DNA of 64,000 nt from an uncultured Aquimarina sp. (GTDB lineage Bacteria > Bacteroidota > Bacteroidia > Flavobacteriales > Flavobacteriaceae), in the NCBI GenBank assembly GCA_947495425.1, contig CANLYR010000013.1:1-64000 (forward strand), in the 5' to 3' direction. The notes below the pieces were generated by a model that saw nothing but the letters and a program-made list of their open reading frames with translations, ran no database searches and had not been told where the DNA came from. The translations under genes were made by a program, and so were the position numbers. Below are positions 5,472 through 43,140 of the stretch, piece by piece. Position 1 is the stretch's first letter. Every line of letters begins with the position of its first letter.

Positions 5472-5597
5472 CACACCGTATAAAAATTAATTGCTGGATG
5501 TAGTCTATTTAAGAAAGACCTCTGGGACTTTCTACCTATGATTTATTTGCTAAATTAGTTGCTTAAACCACGCAATTAATCTTATACTAACACGTAC
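5472..5597 (+). repeat. structured cassette-boundary element, copy 2
   Basis: The outer arms match copy 1 (ACACCGTATAAAAATTAATTGC ... ATTAGTTGCTTAAACC ... GCAATTAATCTTATAC-TAACACG). The middle diverges but still forms a stem, AGAAAG(a)CC...GG(a)CTTTCT. As with copy 1 it lies immediately right of an IS1182-type remnant and immediately left of a secreted-protein gene. Confidence 0.55.
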
Positions 5598-5618
5598 ACA
5601 ATTAAAAAAACTTTAAAA

Positions 5619-6039
5619 GTGAAAAAAGAGTATTCTAATTTTATTATGTATTTCTTTAGCAGTATTTTCTTGTAAAAAGAAAAAAGAAAGCAAAAATCAA
5701 AATATTGAAAACATTGATTTAGTTCATATCAAAGGAGGTGGTTTTGAACCTGGCTGGGATATATCTATATCAGAAAAAAACAGGAACAAATTTATTTTCG
5801 AATTGACCACTATGATGGGAGAAAAAAAGGCAACTGGCAATTTATCTCTGGAAAATTATTTTTCTACAAAAGAAAACTCGAATAATCTTTTTACGGGTCT
5901 AGATAATAAGGGAGAAACAATAACTGTTCTATATAAAATTAAAAGTTGTTTAGATATGGCTGGGGATGATACTGGTGGCACGATAACAATTGAATGGAAT
6001 AATCAGAAATTAAAGGGTTGTGCAAAATTGATTAATTAA
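5619..6039 (+). pseudogene. lipoprotein with frameshift in an A6 tract at the start
   Basis: A GTG at 5619 followed by a run of six A (5622-5627) leads into a frame that stops at once. Removing one A gives a clean lipoprotein signal (MKKSILILLCISLAVFSCKKK) that continues open to the stop at 6039, about 140 residues in all. In the sequence as given, only the part after about 5623 is open and lacks a normal start. The mature part shows no known domain (ends KLKGCAKLIN). It could be a pseudogene, a gene rescued by slippage on the A tract, a phase-variable gene or a sequencing error. The position right of the boundary element matches the pseudogene at 3344. Confidence 0.6.
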
Positions 6040-34078: not shown

Positions 34079-34396
34079 TTATTTAAAGATTTCTAGAAGA
34101 ATATCTTTTATATCTTGTATATCGGCAAGCTTAAGAGATTCAATCTTGTTTTTAATTCGACGCTTATCAATACAGCGTATCTGATCTAAGGCGACTTGGC
34201 TAGATTTGTTCTTCACAGTAACTTTAACTCTCGATGGCCACGCTCTGATAGTTGTAGTCAATGGCGCGATGATAACCGTTTTCAGACTTACATTTAATTC
34301 ATTAGGTGATAGTATCACACAAGGTCTTGTCTTTTGTGTTTCTGCACCCACAGTTGGATCGAGATTAACCCAGTAGATCTCATATTGTTCTACCAT
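34079..34396 (-). CDS. MazF/PemK-type mRNA interferase toxin
   Basis: From the ATG at 34396 the toxin has 105 residues. It shows the MazF/PemK fold signature: YEIYWVNLDPTVGAETQKTRPCVILSP, in pieces, with the catalytic Arg/Thr region, then VALDQIRCIDKRRI. The activity is sequence-specific cleavage of single-stranded mRNA. The start overlaps the end of the antitoxin gene by 7 bases, typical of a toxin-antitoxin operon. A TTG two codons further up is an alternative start. Confidence 0.92.
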   Translation of the reverse strand: MVEQYEIYWVNLDPTVGAETQKTRPCVILSPNELNVSLKTVIIAPLTTTIRAWPSRVKVTVKNKSSQVALDQIRCIDKRRIKNKIESLKLADIQDIKDILLEIFK

Positions 34397-34650
34397 GTCC
34401 AATCATCGGTTGCTTCGTCTTCAAAAACATCAGGGAACAACATTTCATGATCACTCAGCGAATCAGCAGCTTGAAACTGCGCTAACCATCCTTTGCGTGG
34501 TTCATCAGTTATTGCAGTTATGATAATTTTTCTACCCTCAGCGTGTATACGAACTTTACCTGTGATGCCAGCAGCATCTCTCATACTGGCAGGTAAAATA
34601 ATACCTTGAGAGTTTCCAATTTTTCTTATTTTAGTTTCCAAAATATACAT
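34390..34650 (-). CDS. MazE-type AbrB-fold antitoxin
   Basis: The 86-residue protein has an N-terminal SpoVT/AbrB DNA-binding domain (KIRKIGNSQGIILPASM). An acidic C-terminal tail (DHEMLFPDVFEDEATDDW) would wrap round the toxin. It represses its own operon as a MazE-MazF complex in known systems. Palindromes just upstream fit such autoregulation. Confidence 0.92.
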   Translation of the reverse strand: MYILETKIRKIGNSQGIILPASMRDAAGITGKVRIHAEGRKIIITAITDEPRKGWLAQFQAADSLSDHEMLFPDVFEDEATDDWTW

Positions 34651-37776: not shown

Positions 37777-38094
37777 GTGAAAGTTTCTAAAAATAAAACA
37801 TATTTAGCAATCTTTTTGCTCTCGGTTTTTTCATTACTGCGAGTAGCAGATTTTCATGCATTAGCACACTTAGATGATGATACTACTGAGCATCATTGTG
37901 AATTTTGTGCTCATGTTGTTGAAGGGAAGAAAGGCAGTACACATATTGTAGTTCCGGTTTCTTACGACGATCTGCAAAAACCTATTTTTTTTCCTGAAAT
38001 TAATGATCTACAATTGTATGATCAGGTACCTTTTCAAAAACCACTTCTTTTTAATTGTATCTTCAATAAACCTCCTCCCAGTGAATTGGGGTAA
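37777..38094 (+). CDS. small His/Cys-rich exported protein, possible metal binder
   Basis: The likely start is the GTG at 37777, giving 105 residues with a hydrophobic signal-type segment (YLAIFLLSVFSLLRVADFHA). A longer frame to 37696 exists but its N-terminus is not signal-like. Directly after the segment come HALAHLDDD and HHCEFCAHVV, a cluster of His and two Cys that could bind zinc or copper. The family is not recognised. It is followed on the same strand by the ZnuD-like receptor. Confidence 0.55.
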   Translation: MKVSKNKTYLAIFLLSVFSLLRVADFHALAHLDDDTTEHHCEFCAHVVEGKKGSTHIVVPVSYDDLQKPIFFPEINDLQLYDQVPFQKPLLFNCIFNKPPPSELG

Positions 38095-38455
38095 TTCTTG
38101 AAACTTAGCTTAGTATTGATTAATATGGTCATTTTTCATCTTTGTAAAGATTGATGATGAGATTTTATTCAGCTAGGTATTTCTGCTAACCCTATATCAT
38201 TTATGGTGATATTCTTTGATATGAAATTATCACCTCTATTACCACTATTATTAAATAATCTTTCAATCGTAAGTTAATTTTAAATATCGCTCGTGTCTTG
38301 TATGGTTTGCAGTTCCTAATGAACCGTGCAAAATAACTAAAAGCTATATAATGTACATTACATTATACATCTATTTGGGATATAAATGAGGCGCTGTTTT
38401 ATCATTTCAACGTATGGGTAAAGATTAGTAAATCATTTTGTATTCATCCAATAGC
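38095..38455 (+). promoter_or_regulatory. regulatory gap with a perfect 9-3-9 palindrome
   Basis: TATAATGTA (38347-38355), CAT, TACATTATA (38359-38367) is a perfect inverted repeat about 90 bases before the receptor ATG at 38456. Its length, AT-rich character and central spacing resemble Fur-family (Zur) operators. The remaining 361 bases show no gene. Confidence 0.55.
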
Positions 38456-40846
38456 ATGAATTTTATCAAAAATAAAGCGTCTTCGGTACATCTGCTGCTG
38501 CTAGCGATTTTTTCTTTCCATTACAATGCGATAGCCCAAGAGGTGAGTGGTGTTGTACTAGATGAGAACAGAGCACCGATTGCTGCAGCAGTAATTACAA
38601 GTTATCCGTCTCAAGAATCAACCATTTCTGATGATCAGGGTAGGTTTTCTTTGACAGTGGTAAACAATGATAAACCACAGTACCTGATCATTAAACATCT
38701 CTCTTTTTCTGACCAGCGTGTAGTTTTAAAAAGCGAAAAAGAAGCGATATCTCTAGAAGTGATCTTGCTTCGAACGATCAATGATTTGGATGAAGTACAC
38801 GTGTTTCAGCCTGGGATATTACAAAGTGTTATTAATGATTCACAATCAGTCACCTTAATTCAAAAAGATTTTATAGCCAAAAATAATACAGGAACCTTTT
38901 CTGGAGCCCTGGCTGCGTTACCAGGTGTCAATACGATGAATGTGGGCGTAGGTATTGCCAAGCCTATGATAAGAGGAATGGGATTTAATCGAATTCTGGT
39001 GAACAACAGAGGCATCAAACAAGAAGGACAACAGTGGGGTGCAGATCACGGGCTAGAAGTAGATCCGTTTGCTATAGAAAATGTTGAGGTTATCAAAGGG
39101 CCAACTTCGTTACTTTTTGGTTCAGATGGTTTGGGAGGTGTCATTAATATCAAAGAAAATGATTATCTACCAGAAGATGGGCATTTGCTACAGCTCACCT
39201 CAACGTATCAGACCAATAATGGAGCGATATCAAATTCGTTAGCATGGAAAAACAAACATAAAAAATGGTTTTTTGAAGCTCGGGTTACCCATCAGGATTA
39301 TGGAGATTATACCATCCCGGCAGATGAGTTCACCTATGCTGGTTTTAGTTTGCCAATTTTTGACAATCGACTTAAAAATACTGCGGGTAATGAGTTACAT
39401 GTTAGCGCCGCTGCCGGGTATCAATCCAAAACAATACGTTCTAGTCTACGGGTCACTAGTTTTAACCAAAAAGCCGGGATTTTCACTGGAGCCATTGGCC
39501 TTCCCAGATCATACAACTTACAGCATCAAGGGGAGTATCGGGATATTGATTTTCCCAGACAAGAAAATCAACATCATATGATAGTGAATAATACGACTGT
39601 TGACATGGGCGCACATCGTCTGGAAATTGATTTGGGGTATCAACGTAATGTTCGAGAAGAACTATCTTTTCCCGGAGCTCATGGTGTAGCAGCAGGACCA
39701 GTAAATACAAATTTAGCTTTAGGGCTGTATTTGGATACTTATACCTCTAATATACGATATGAATTCAACCCAAATTCTAAACACCAGGTGTTGTTTGGGA
39801 GTCAGTTTCAGTACATGATGAATGAAAAAGATGGGTTCGAATTCTTATTACCAGTTTTTACTACATTGCAGTTAGGGTTTTTTCATTATCAGGCATATGA
39901 TTTTTCAGAACGATGGTTGATCAATGGTGGTATACGCTATGATATGGGTTTTCATCAGATTGATCAGCACGAGCAGCCGGTTTATGATCAAACTACGTTT
40001 GAGCCGACAGGAGATGTTGTAGAACGAACTCCAGAGTTTGATCGAGATTTTAATAATATCAGCGGAGCAGCAGGAGCAGTTTGGAAAGCAACCAAGAATC
40101 ATCATTTAAAAGTGAACTTGGGCAATAGCTTTCGTTTTCCCACTGCGATAGAACTCTCTAGTAATGGCGTGCATCATGGAAATTTCAGGCATGAAGTGGG
40201 AGATCAGAATCTCAACGCTGAAAAAGGATATCAAGTAGACTTTACCTATTTGCATCAGTCAGAAAATGCGTTTTTAGAAGTGGCCGCTTTCTATGGGTAT
40301 TATAAGGATTATATCTATCTCGCTCCCACAGGTAATTTTTCATTTTTACCCTCTGGGGGTACCTTGTGGCAATACCGCCAGAATGATGCTTTGTTTAATG
40401 GGTTCGAAATCTCAGCCAGCTACCAATTTCCATTTCATGTAAAAACTGATCTTGCTGTAGATTTTGTTCAAAACCTAAACTTGGATAGCCAGTTACCATT
40501 ACCACTCACTCCGGCACCTTCAGTCTTATCGAGTATTGAATATAATGGCTTTTTTCAAACCCCAAAAACCGTAAATAATGGATACGTTTTCCTTTCCGGA
40601 AGGTATAATTTCGAACAAAATAATGTGGATAGAAATGAAACGCCTACGACTGATAGTTTTATCATTAATGCGGGTTTAGGCTTTTCTGTTGCCTGGGGTA
40701 AACAAAACATACAATGTAAAATAAGTGCTAATAATCTATTAAACGTCTCTTTCTTTAATCATATCAGTAGGTATCGTCTGATCAATTTACCAGAACAAGG
40801 AAGAAACATCGTTTTTTCGGCTCAAATTCCTTTACAATTCAAATAA
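38456..40846 (+). CDS. ZnuD-like TonB-dependent receptor
   Basis: From the ATG at 38456 the protein has 796 residues, a signal peptide (ends NAIAQ) and a carboxypeptidase-regulatory-like domain. The plug has the marks of the metal/ZnuD-type receptors: ALPGVNTMNVGVGIAKPMIRG, then QWGADHGLEVDPFAIENVEVI, then GPTSLLFGSDGLGGVINI. The barrel runs to a terminal strand ending in Phe-Lys. Several His clusters (NQHHMI, GVHHGNFRHE) may face the channel. Uptake of zinc or another metal across the outer membrane is likely, because of the neighbours and the plug. Confidence 0.8.
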   Translation: MNFIKNKASSVHLLLLAIFSFHYNAIAQEVSGVVLDENRAPIAAAVITSYPSQESTISDDQGRFSLTVVNNDKPQYLIIKHLSFSDQRVVLKSEKEAISLEVILLRTINDLDEVHVFQPGILQSVINDSQSVTLIQKDFIAKNNTGTFSGALAALPGVNTMNVGVGIAKPMIRGMGFNRILVNNRGIKQEGQQWGADHGLEVDPFAIENVEVIKGPTSLLFGSDGLGGVINIKENDYLPEDGHLLQLTSTYQTNNGAISNSLAWKNKHKKWFFEARVTHQDYGDYTIPADEFTYAGFSLPIFDNRLKNTAGNELHVSAAAGYQSKTIRSSLRVTSFNQKAGIFTGAIGLPRSYNLQHQGEYRDIDFPRQENQHHMIVNNTTVDMGAHRLEIDLGYQRNVREELSFPGAHGVAAGPVNTNLALGLYLDTYTSNIRYEFNPNSKHQVLFGSQFQYMMNEKDGFEFLLPVFTTLQLGFFHYQAYDFSERWLINGGIRYDMGFHQIDQHEQPVYDQTTFEPTGDVVERTPEFDRDFNNISGAAGAVWKATKNHHLKVNLGNSFRFPTAIELSSNGVHHGNFRHEVGDQNLNAEKGYQVDFTYLHQSENAFLEVAAFYGYYKDYIYLAPTGNFSFLPSGGTLWQYRQNDALFNGFEISASYQFPFHVKTDLAVDFVQNLNLDSQLPLPLTPAPSVLSSIEYNGFFQTPKTVNNGYVFLSGRYNFEQNNVDRNETPTTDSFIINAGLGFSVAWGKQNIQCKISANNLLNVSFFNHISRYRLINLPEQGRNIVFSAQIPLQFK

Positions 40847-40875
40847 ATATTAATGTTTACTTAAATCACACCTAT

Positions 40876-41775
40876 ATGAAAACACACATTTTATTACCGA
40901 TCTTTTTTGTATTCTTGCTTAGCTCTTGTATAGATAGTGACAGTGATGAAGCATTAGATCTTACTGCACCCAGTATTAGTGCTAATGCCGGAGAATCCTC
41001 TATTTTGCCAAAGCAATTTTACACGGTCACAAACACTACCAATGAGGTCCCATTATCTTTTATGGTCGAAGATGAAAGTGGTATTCGCGAAATCAAAATC
41101 GAATCTCATAGTGGATTTGATGGGCATACGCACAAATCGTTTCTAACCAAAAATTCTCGATTTAAGCTTTTTCGTCTTAATAAGCTTTTTACGACTGAGG
41201 AGATTGGCAATCAAAAAAAGTTTGTTCATTCGACTACAGAGGGTTCAAACATTTACCTTGATGAACGAAACTCAGAAATTAACGCTGATGATCTAATCCT
41301 TGCAGGTCCGTATCACTTTTCTATACAAGCAACAGATATAGAAGGAAATCAAACCCGCTATCAAGACAATTCTATCTATCATACTACACTGTTTATACAA
41401 CGGCCGTACGCACCACAGGTAGAAATCCAAAACTTAAATGCAACAGACCAACCCATTTCTGGCCGAATTTATAGAAACCTTGATGCTGCCGATTCTTCTG
41501 ATATCATTTTTTTATGGATTTATATTGAAGAAGGAACCGAAACAAATTCTGAGGCCGAAGGTACTATACTCAAAGAATGGATCTGGGGGAATTCTAACTG
41601 GCCACACCAGTTTCGCCCAGATAGTGGTATAGCTTTGCCAAACACTCAAGAACTCGTATTAGAAGAACTTTTTGAAAAAGACACTGAATTTTATACTTCC
41701 CTAGACGGAAACACATTAGTCATTTGGGCAGAAGATACTAATGGAAATATAACTGTACATCAAATTAATAATTAA
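40876..41775 (+). CDS. DUF4625-like lipoprotein
   Basis: The 299-residue protein has a lipoprotein signal (FVFLLSSC) and two immunoglobulin-like repeats of the DUF4625 type. The first repeat is DLTAPSISANAGESS, SFMVEDESGIREIKIE. A histidine-rich loop (SHSGFDGHTHKSF) follows the first repeat and could bind metal. It lies 29 bases after the receptor gene and 14 before the AztD-like gene, clearly one operon. It is probably a surface partner of the receptor. Confidence 0.7.
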   Translation: MKTHILLPIFFVFLLSSCIDSDSDEALDLTAPSISANAGESSILPKQFYTVTNTTNEVPLSFMVEDESGIREIKIESHSGFDGHTHKSFLTKNSRFKLFRLNKLFTTEEIGNQKKFVHSTTEGSNIYLDERNSEINADDLILAGPYHFSIQATDIEGNQTRYQDNSIYHTTLFIQRPYAPQVEIQNLNATDQPISGRIYRNLDAADSSDIIFLWIYIEEGTETNSEAEGTILKEWIWGNSNWPHQFRPDSGIALPNTQELVLEELFEKDTEFYTSLDGNTLVIWAEDTNGNITVHQINN

Positions 41776-41789
41776 ATATATCAAATATT

Positions 41790-43085
41790 ATGAAAAAAGT
41801 GAATTTAAAATTCTTAGGATTAGCATGGATCATGCTATTTTTTACTGCATGTAGCAATGACGATGACACTACTATAGAAGAAGAAGCGATTATATTCAAG
41901 GATATGGAAAGTGACTGGGTGCGGCTCACACTACTAAGAGAAGGTGCTATCGATGTGATGCAGGCTAATACCAGCGAAATTAAGCACACAGTAGAAGGAG
42001 CATTAGCTCCAGAGGCACGTTATTATCAAAGTCATTCTGGTCAATATCTTACCCAGATTGACAGAAATGCAAACAAAGTACGTTTTTTTGATTCTGGGAT
42101 TGTAAATCACGAAGATCACGGTCATGACTATAGTGCCAAATGGTTAAATCTAGAATTAGAAAACATATTGCCTACACATTATTCTGATTCACAAGGTCAT
42201 ATTGTAATCTTTAACGATGGAGAAGGTTCATTTACCTATGTTAATGAATCTCAATTAGAAATACCGGCCTACCAACCTCAATTATTCAAATTTGATAATA
42301 CAGTGGCGCATCATGGTGCCGGATTTCGTCTGGATAATGGACAATTTGTAATCACCTTCAAGAACACAACAGAACCAGGGGGGCTTCCTCAAACCGTAAA
42401 ATTCATTGATGCCAATGGTACTATTATTGAAGATAACAAAAGTGTTGAAGTTACAGGAATTCATGGTAATGCTACCAATGGTGAATTTGGTGTTTTTGGA
42501 GCTACTGATGGTGTTATTTTGGTAGATAACCAAGGGACAAAAACCCTGATTGGTAATGTAGGAGAACTCAACTCAGAATCAGGGAATTGGTTAGGTACTA
42601 TGAAGGGGCATTATAACTCTGATGTCTTTTTTGCAAGGTCTCGCAATTTGGGTGTTTTTCTTTTGAATCCAGAAGACAAAACATTATCCAATATTTATAA
42701 GGGTGCAGATGTTTTAAATCATATGTATAGTTTTGACGGTGAATATTACCTATTACATACTGAAGGAAATGTAGTTCATATTTTTGATGGTGATACTGGT
42801 GAAAAAATAACCAGTAGAGCAGTAGAAATGGCCAATATCCCCGTATTAACTGATAAAAATAGATCAGAAACTGAGGTACTGGCTAAAATGGAAGAGCCTA
42901 GTCCTGTTTTAGTATGTTCTGATAAATTTCTGTATGTGTTGACACCTGGTCGAAATCAGGTTAAAGTTTTAGAAATCAAAAGTTTAAAACATGTGCATAC
43001 TATCGACTTACCTTACGCGGTTGATGGGATACAAAAAAATGGGTTTTCTATAGAAGGAGAGCAGAACCCTGATTACACACATTAA
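41790..43085 (+). CDS. AztD-like beta-propeller zinc-chaperone lipoprotein
   Basis: The 431-residue protein has a lipoprotein signal (MLFFTACSND) and repeating beta-propeller blades. Its layout follows the periplasmic zinc chaperone AztD: an FFDSGIVNHEDHGHDYS loop rich in His and Asp, HIVIFNDGEGSFTY, AHHGAGF, and GIHGNATNGEFGVFGATDGVILVD. AztD passes zinc to the ABC binding protein AztC in Paracoccus. No AztC or ABC genes are visible here. It ends the run of receptor, DUF4625 and propeller genes. Confidence 0.7.
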   Translation: MKKVNLKFLGLAWIMLFFTACSNDDDTTIEEEAIIFKDMESDWVRLTLLREGAIDVMQANTSEIKHTVEGALAPEARYYQSHSGQYLTQIDRNANKVRFFDSGIVNHEDHGHDYSAKWLNLELENILPTHYSDSQGHIVIFNDGEGSFTYVNESQLEIPAYQPQLFKFDNTVAHHGAGFRLDNGQFVITFKNTTEPGGLPQTVKFIDANGTIIEDNKSVEVTGIHGNATNGEFGVFGATDGVILVDNQGTKTLIGNVGELNSESGNWLGTMKGHYNSDVFFARSRNLGVFLLNPEDKTLSNIYKGADVLNHMYSFDGEYYLLHTEGNVVHIFDGDTGEKITSRAVEMANIPVLTDKNRSETEVLAKMEEPSPVLVCSDKFLYVLTPGRNQVKVLEIKSLKHVHTIDLPYAVDGIQKNGFSIEGEQNPDYTH

Positions 43086-43100
43086 TATATTATATTAAAA

Positions 43101-43140
43101 CCCACCAGAATACATATTACTTTTATATTCTGGTGGATTT
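43101..43140 (+). terminator. rho-independent terminator of the metal locus
   Basis: CCACCAGAATA (43102-43112) pairs with TATTCTGGTGG (43126-43136), followed by ATTTCTT. The eleven-pair stem ends the operon. Confidence 0.75.

Follow-up and report, generated by a model that had tools for sequence, protein, structure and literature searches.

Receptor and surface-type lipoprotein genes with an AztD-like protein as a candidate zinc-acquisition operon of the outer membrane in Aquimarina and its relatives

The region from position 37777 to 43085 encodes, on the forward strand and in this order, a small His/Cys protein, a TonB-dependent receptor, a DUF4625 lipoprotein and an AztD-like propeller lipoprotein. 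We read these genes as a probable zinc-acquisition operon of the outer membrane, in which lipoproteins at the cell surface would hand Zn2+ to a receptor of the ZnuD branch, and on the sequence comparisons presented below we give this reading a probability of about 0.6. The relationship of the propeller protein to AztD is firm, while we infer that zinc is the cargo, that the lipoproteins lie at the surface and that transfer goes from AztD to the receptor. Comparison with related genomes suggests that the receptor-lipoprotein group recurs as a means of zinc capture at the cell surface that has not been described before. The window, by which we mean the whole stretch of 64,000 nucleotides that was analysed, belongs to contig C13 of a 4.77-Mb genome in which a profile search gives 38 receptor-barrel matches.

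The gene group and its proteins

The features of the region are as follows.

37777..38094, forward strand: small exported His/Cys protein of 105 aa; GTG start, N-terminal hydrophobic stretch, HHCEFCAH, and NKPPP near the C-terminus
38347..38367, no strand: perfect inverted repeat TATAATGTA-CAT-TACATTATA, 89 bp 5' of the receptor ATG; candidate operator
38456..40846, forward strand: TonB-dependent receptor of the ZnuD/haem branch; ATG start, the longest ORF opening at TTG 38438
40876..41775, forward strand: DUF4625 lipoprotein with a second half; lipobox LSSC with acidic residues behind it, His loop HSGFDGHTH
41790..43085, forward strand: AztD-like beta-propeller lipoprotein; lipobox FTAC followed by SNDDD; matched in NCBIfam and among PDB sequences
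43102..43136, forward strand: 11-bp hairpin, possible transcript end; -15.6 kcal/mol, z -4.6

A preliminary description of this DNA had proposed four genes on one strand, the last three closely packed and ending at one terminator. All four open reading frames were found, and within the three-gene group at 38456-43085 the intergenic gaps measure 29 bp (receptor to DUF4625) and 14 bp (DUF4625 to AztD-like gene). Because 361 bp lie between the end of the small His/Cys gene and the receptor ATG at 38456, that gene is only putatively co-transcribed with the receptor group. The terminator fared less well: a hairpin does follow the last gene, but it is absent from the list of the consensus terminator scan, so its reading as a terminator is plausible only. 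Both flanking genes lie on the opposite strand and encode an ABC ATPase lacking a membrane part (two ABC_tran domains and a linker) and an apolipoprotein N-acyltransferase. Elsewhere in the window, positions 34079-34650 hold a MazF/PemK-type toxin gene (Pfam, 96 bits), and the small gene preceding it looks antitoxin-like by eye.

The NCBIfam AztD model NF038015 matches residues 50-409 of the 41790-43085 product with an E-value of 1e-24 and 87 bits, a score far under the curated cut-off of 400 bits at which the name is assigned, and a sequence search of the PDB returned the AztD proteins of Citrobacter (6cmk, E 7.5e-13) and Paracoccus (6ck1, E 9.7e-6). These matches confirm the kinship with AztD given in the preliminary description; the nearest named relative, at 55% identity, is from Zobellia amurskyensis. 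Structure prediction for 41790-43085 gave a mixed result, in that the top nine Foldseek matches were all AztD chains (TM about 0.45) but the AF2 model itself is poor (pLDDT 47). Only two sequences were usable as input, so both this model and that of the DUF4625 protein (pLDDT 55) are poor, and the Foldseek results are to be read as hints.

The zinc ligands of AztD named in PMC6689063 are His124, His167 and His218 at site 1 and His99, His102, Asp104 and the C-terminal His408 at site 2, and the 6ck1 numbering in our PDB alignment agrees with that numbering at the ligand residues. Their counterparts in the window protein are H130, H175 and H225 (site 1) and H107, H110, H112 and the C-terminal H431 (site 2). 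Across the 21 full-length homologues, the window protein included, all three site-1 histidines are kept in 21/21, as are His99 and His102 of site 2. At the third site-2 position 9 homologues have Asp and 12, the window protein among them, have His (HxxHxH in the window), and the last residue is His in 19 of the 21, again with the window protein among them and with L092 and L093 as the exceptions. The AztD metal site is therefore present in the window protein, with site 1 intact and His in place of Asp104 in site 2. Two observations concern the C-terminal end of AztD and the gene behind it. The full-length AztD gene of genome G405 lacks the C-terminal His, and a second copy of the AztD C-terminus only (G405:C1:144917-145123; 71% identity, residues 363-431) lies 1.7 kb after it. 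A lipoprotein of 500 aa is encoded directly 3' of AztD in two genus members (L092:8240-9745 and L093:10851-12386); the one in L093 matched no Pfam or NCBIfam family.

The DUF4625-like lipoprotein with a His loop was likewise correctly recognised: PF15418 scores 51 bits against a cut-off of 27, and the loop occupies residues 78-86. Among 44 DUF4625-type ORFs the motif HxxFDxHxH occurs in 24, including that of the window, another HxH motif in 17 and neither in 3. The Foldseek search with the weak DUF4625 model returned only generic low-TM matches to tandem Ig/FN3 domains.

The receptor contains a plug (65 bits), a barrel (95 bits) and a CarbopepD_reg_2 domain (38 bits) according to Pfam. Its best NCBIfam scores are to the TonB-hemin (haem) model, 134 bits, and to ZnuD, 129 bits, both below the cut-offs, that for ZnuD being curated at 950 bits; ZnuD is the only PDB sequence that matches the receptor under 1e-10. 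The buried zinc ligands of ZnuD given in PMC4557270 are Asp99, His100, Glu340 and His499. In the phmmer alignment the receptor residues D203, H204 and H579 (numbered from TTG 38438) fall on D99, H100 and H499, an assignment that uses an assumed constant offset of 14 between the chain and the paper and that places three of the four ligands, E340 lying outside the alignment. The scores in the ZnuD/haem branch and the aligned ligands support the ZnuD-like TonB receptor of the preliminary description. Of 25 strong receptor ORFs from related loci (a count in which one gene, L098 = L150, appears twice), 24 have a plug motif GxDHG(L/M)E(I/V)D that includes the equivalents of D99 and H100, L174 being the one without it. 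In the receptors of genus g2 the loop His is displaced by two residues.

No Pfam match was obtained for the small His/Cys protein at 37777-38094. A His/Cys protein of this kind stands at the head of all 24 module loci read out, and a PP close to the C-terminus is common to all 26 that were compared; it may serve as an envelope accessory. Contig C5 of the same genome carries two more of these small proteins, encoded divergently (L195:5026-5331 and 5593-5922), one of them at the head of a row that includes ABC-exporter-like genes and ZigA.

Recurrence of the module and the direction of transfer

We searched for AztD at three taxonomic depths. The scan of the phylum matched 16 of 395 genomes, 11 of them strongly; the weak matches (G388, G147, G195, G254 and G057; E 6e-7 to 9e-4) were left out of all counts. 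Four of these five, all but G195, were inspected (L037-L040) and had no partner genes except for a weak receptor match in L039. The scan of the genus found AztD in 5 of 66 members and not in the other 61, a second short match in each of G405 and G451 being left uncounted. In the scan of the family, which was limited to about four scored candidates in each genome, 63 of 397 genomes matched, and from these we kept eight full-length genes (three of them already known) and one partial gene (G479); the 54 matches dropped had E-values of 1.2e-5 or worse and mostly covered the signal-peptide end. Together with one Zobellia locus from the genome collection, this gives 21 distinct full-length AztD genes.

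A receptor of the same branch and a DUF4625 gene lie in line beside 16 of these 21 genes (the window, L026, L028-L035, L092-L095, L144 and L146), and the presence of the same gene group in other species rules out a chance association. The preliminary description had stressed that AztD is joined here to a receptor instead of to AztABC, and this stands: the only ZnuA-type gene of the genome is on another contig (C10), near a DtxR-type regulator. The arrangement is no oddity of this genome, for the receptor module recurs both with and without AztD. At the AztD position of the module in the partial match, L149:8398-9990 (G479) encodes an N-terminal DUF4625 domain (61 bits) fused to an AztD-like propeller; the propeller matches the AztD profile (1.3e-15) and keeps HxxHxH, has lost the site-1 histidines and gives no match to the NCBIfam AztD model. 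Of 24 genomes selected for a DUF4625 search, 10 gave a match. They include 4 of 16 genus members that lack AztD and 3 of the 5 genomes in which AztD stands alone; G320 and G822, the other two of these five, gave none. Seven AztD-less modules (L150 and L172-L177) all consist of the small protein, the receptor and two DUF4625-type lipoproteins. Since AztD was not found in 61 of 66 genus members and since modules without it exist, AztD cannot be essential to the receptor.

The lone genes (L027, L036, L145, L147 and L148) bear on another role for the AztD-like protein, that of a zinc store or buffer which transfers nothing to the receptor. AztD stands alone in 5 of the 21 loci, there accompanied by the regulatory box described below, and a storage role for site 1 is discussed by Neupane et al. 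(PMC6689063). The box and the partner genes resemble a starvation regulon, however, and in 3 of the 5 lone-AztD genomes the receptor module is found elsewhere, so that we hold mere storage to be very improbable.

The side of the outer membrane on which the lipoproteins lie bears on the direction in which zinc would travel. Behind its lipobox the window AztD-like protein reads CSNDDD. At least two Asp or Glu residues at positions +3 to +6 after the lipobox Cys occur in 21/21 AztD proteins and in 35 of 41 DUF4625-type ORFs (one of the 41, L029:8699, being a chance match), the figure for the remaining lipobox ORFs in the loci retrieved being 21 of 98. Lauber et al. (PMC5080379) derived two such signals, SDDDD (surface lipoproteins of Bacteroides fragilis) and SDDFE (SusD-like proteins of Flavobacterium johnsoniae), and report that either one exposes a reporter in Capnocytophaga. 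As the acidic residues of AztD are like this Bacteroidota surface-export signal, AztD is more likely outside the cell, giving zinc to the receptor; the argument is one of likeness, and the same feature is carried by those 21 of 98 other ORFs.

The preliminary description had the opposite direction, with a lipid-anchored chaperone taking zinc from the receptor; AztD and the DUF4625 protein would then face the periplasm and pass the metal on to an inner-membrane importer. This agrees with Paracoccus, where AztD is described as periplasmic and as giving zinc to the binding protein AztC (PMC6689063), and the donor site, site 2, is kept in the window protein. Against it, the contiguous same-strand groups of the 16 linked AztD loci contain no evident ABC-transporter gene (ORF lists read by eye, not all scanned), and the acidic export-type signal in every AztD favours the outside. 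We regard transfer from receptor to AztD as rather unlikely, and the direction first proposed is probably to be reversed. An ABC gene row was seen in L094, about 3.5 kb from the AztD group and on the opposite strand.

A candidate Zur box in the relatives

By footprinting we identified a palindrome, AATGCAAYANTGTTGCATT, which is present at or before the first gene in all 14 AztD loci outside the clade of the window when up to 4 mismatches are allowed in the 19-mer. Several loci hold a pair of copies, 36-40 bp apart. In L027 and L147 the palindrome runs into the beginning of the longest ORF, and a more probable start codon lies further in, beyond the palindrome. When L028 was simulated with a first-order Markov model, 1.3% of 300-bp stretches contained a box with at most 4 mismatches and 0.1% one with at most 3. 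Over ten genomes there were 39 forward hits against 3 for a control in which the pattern is read backwards (27 against 4 on the other strand), and 25 of the 39 remain once the AztD sites that gave the pattern are removed. The box also lies 5' of the genes in six of the seven AztD-less modules, L174 being the one without it.

Outside the AztD loci the box was found at 28 places, 16 of which were fetched. Seven of the 16 are at Fur-family, MerC, ZigA or pyridine-nucleotide oxidoreductase genes and three at TonB receptors; one adjoins another receptor-like gene and is ambiguous, and five, two of them inside genes, have no evident link. ZigA was identified by NF038288 (553 of 600 bits) and the MerC and FUR families by Pfam. 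In four loci of genus g2 (L104, L106, L108 and L110) a compact candidate zinc cluster was observed in which a Fur-family gene is divergent from MerC and oxidoreductase genes with the palindrome between them, ZigA being present too in L108 and L110. The palindrome of this cluster is a candidate Zur box for Bacteroidota. In L173 zigA comes after the receptor genes, in the same orientation; in L177 it is transcribed away from them across the box. The Fur-family gene beside the box scores 37 bits as PerR, 33 as Fur and 28 as Zur, all far below the cut-offs; because PerR exceeds Zur, the name Zur is one we take from the neighbouring genes. We infer that the box-bearing genes of the relatives form a Zur-type regulon, and it is from the relatives that the zinc role proposed in the preliminary description draws its support.

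These results also bear on whether the substrate could be haem or another metal (copper, iron or nickel), imported by a haem-type receptor with AztD as only a metal buffer. The TonB-hemin score of the window receptor exceeds its ZnuD score, ZnuD was at first regarded as a haem receptor (PMC4557270), and PerR is the best score of the Fur-family gene by the box. Weighing against such a substrate are the AztD zinc sites, the ZigA genes neighbouring the receptor genes in L173 and L177, the box common to ZigA genes, and the receptor of the relative L149, in which ZnuD (152 bits) is ahead of haem (144 bits). On balance a cargo other than zinc seems quite improbable.

For the window itself the regulatory evidence differs. 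No Zur-like box was found at the operon in any of the seven loci of its clade (the window, L026, L092-L095 and L144), so that zinc control of the window operon is only putative; none was found at the fusion locus L149 either. A perfect box does occur in this genus, 5' of zigA in L198, a member that has AztD. The genome of the window has a ZigA scoring 561 bits and two Fur-family genes; the product of one of the two is closely related to the g2 regulator (9e-22) and has a weak Zur score (26 of 167 bits). No operator was found in common between this operon and the promoters of its own zigA, Fur-family or small-protein genes.

Two candidates for a Zur box of the window's own genome were rejected. 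The palindrome at 38347-38367 is the only perfect copy in the genome, but near-matches with at most 3 mismatches number 12 against 19 for the control, and it is not conserved in the nearest relative, L092; it is kept as no more than a candidate operator. The box AATGCAAC has 11 forward hits in the genome of the window against 9 for the control, and its best hit (C22, L053), beside a protease gene, seems to belong to a hairpin. A site with three mismatches to the box was noted on contig C5 (L153:2987), 5' of a protease gene that adjoins the genome's own Fur-family gene.

Proposed function and comparison with known systems

In the function that we propose, the acidic export signal would bring both lipoproteins to the external side of the outer membrane, where AztD would bind Zn2+ at the site built by the HxxHxH hairpin and the C-terminal His. 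The ion would then be passed to the receptor, directly or by way of the DUF4625 His loop, and the receptor would import it with energy from TonB. For the relatives, repression by a Zur-type protein that is relieved under zinc scarcity is probable. The wider proposal, a new zinc-uptake architecture of Bacteroidota made up of a Zur-controlled receptor and surface lipoproteins, with AztD as the anchored extracellular catcher passing Zn2+ through DUF4625 His loops, is tentative and falls somewhat short of even odds. If true, this surface-catcher architecture would be the first function assigned to DUF4625, and AztD would act outside the cell as the donor to a receptor. With this module DUF4625 and the family of small His/Cys proteins gain a testable assignment, AztD is seen in a setting other than its known transporter, and the phylum receives a candidate Zur box. 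Within the open-licence literature we found no description of zinc passage through the outer membrane of Bacteroidota by such a module, and no paper on DUF4625.

The closest known system for the propeller is AztABCD (Paracoccus denitrificans and Citrobacter koseri; PDB 6ck1, 6cmk and 6n01), whose AztD is of the same family and shares the three site-1 histidines, the HxxHx(D/H) hairpin and the C-terminal His. The window protein differs from it in having His for Asp104, Glu for Gly100 and a hairpin shorter by two residues, in being a lipoprotein with an acidic signal, and in being linked to a TonB receptor and a DUF4625 protein in a group without an ABC transporter. A TonB receptor of Paracoccus, Pden0296, is reported in PMC5387054 to be induced together with aztD by zinc shortage, its gene number being distant.

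The receptor belongs to the same branch as ZnuD of Neisseria (PDB 4rdr), with the plug pair D99-H100 and the loop H499 aligned. It differs in its N-terminal CarbopepD_reg_2 domain, in its two accompanying lipoproteins and in a score far below the ZnuD cut-off; no lipoprotein partner is known to be required by ZnuD.

Pairs of a receptor and a surface lipoprotein are familiar in Bacteroidota from SusC/SusD and HmuR/HmuY. The XusA/XusB system for enterobactin, as described in PMC12574912, likewise pairs the gene of a TonB receptor with that of a lipoprotein which captures the ligand outside the cell. The window receptor resembles XusA/XusB in being encoded with lipoproteins, which would also do their catching outside. 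It is set apart from all three pairs by its ligand, presumably ionic zinc, and by its lipoproteins, DUF4625 and AztD; at the level of Pfam names, no XusB, SusD or HmuY family was assigned among the window proteins. Each part of the module is of a known kind, and it is the link between AztD and a receptor, together with the fusion of DUF4625 to a propeller, that would surprise a specialist.
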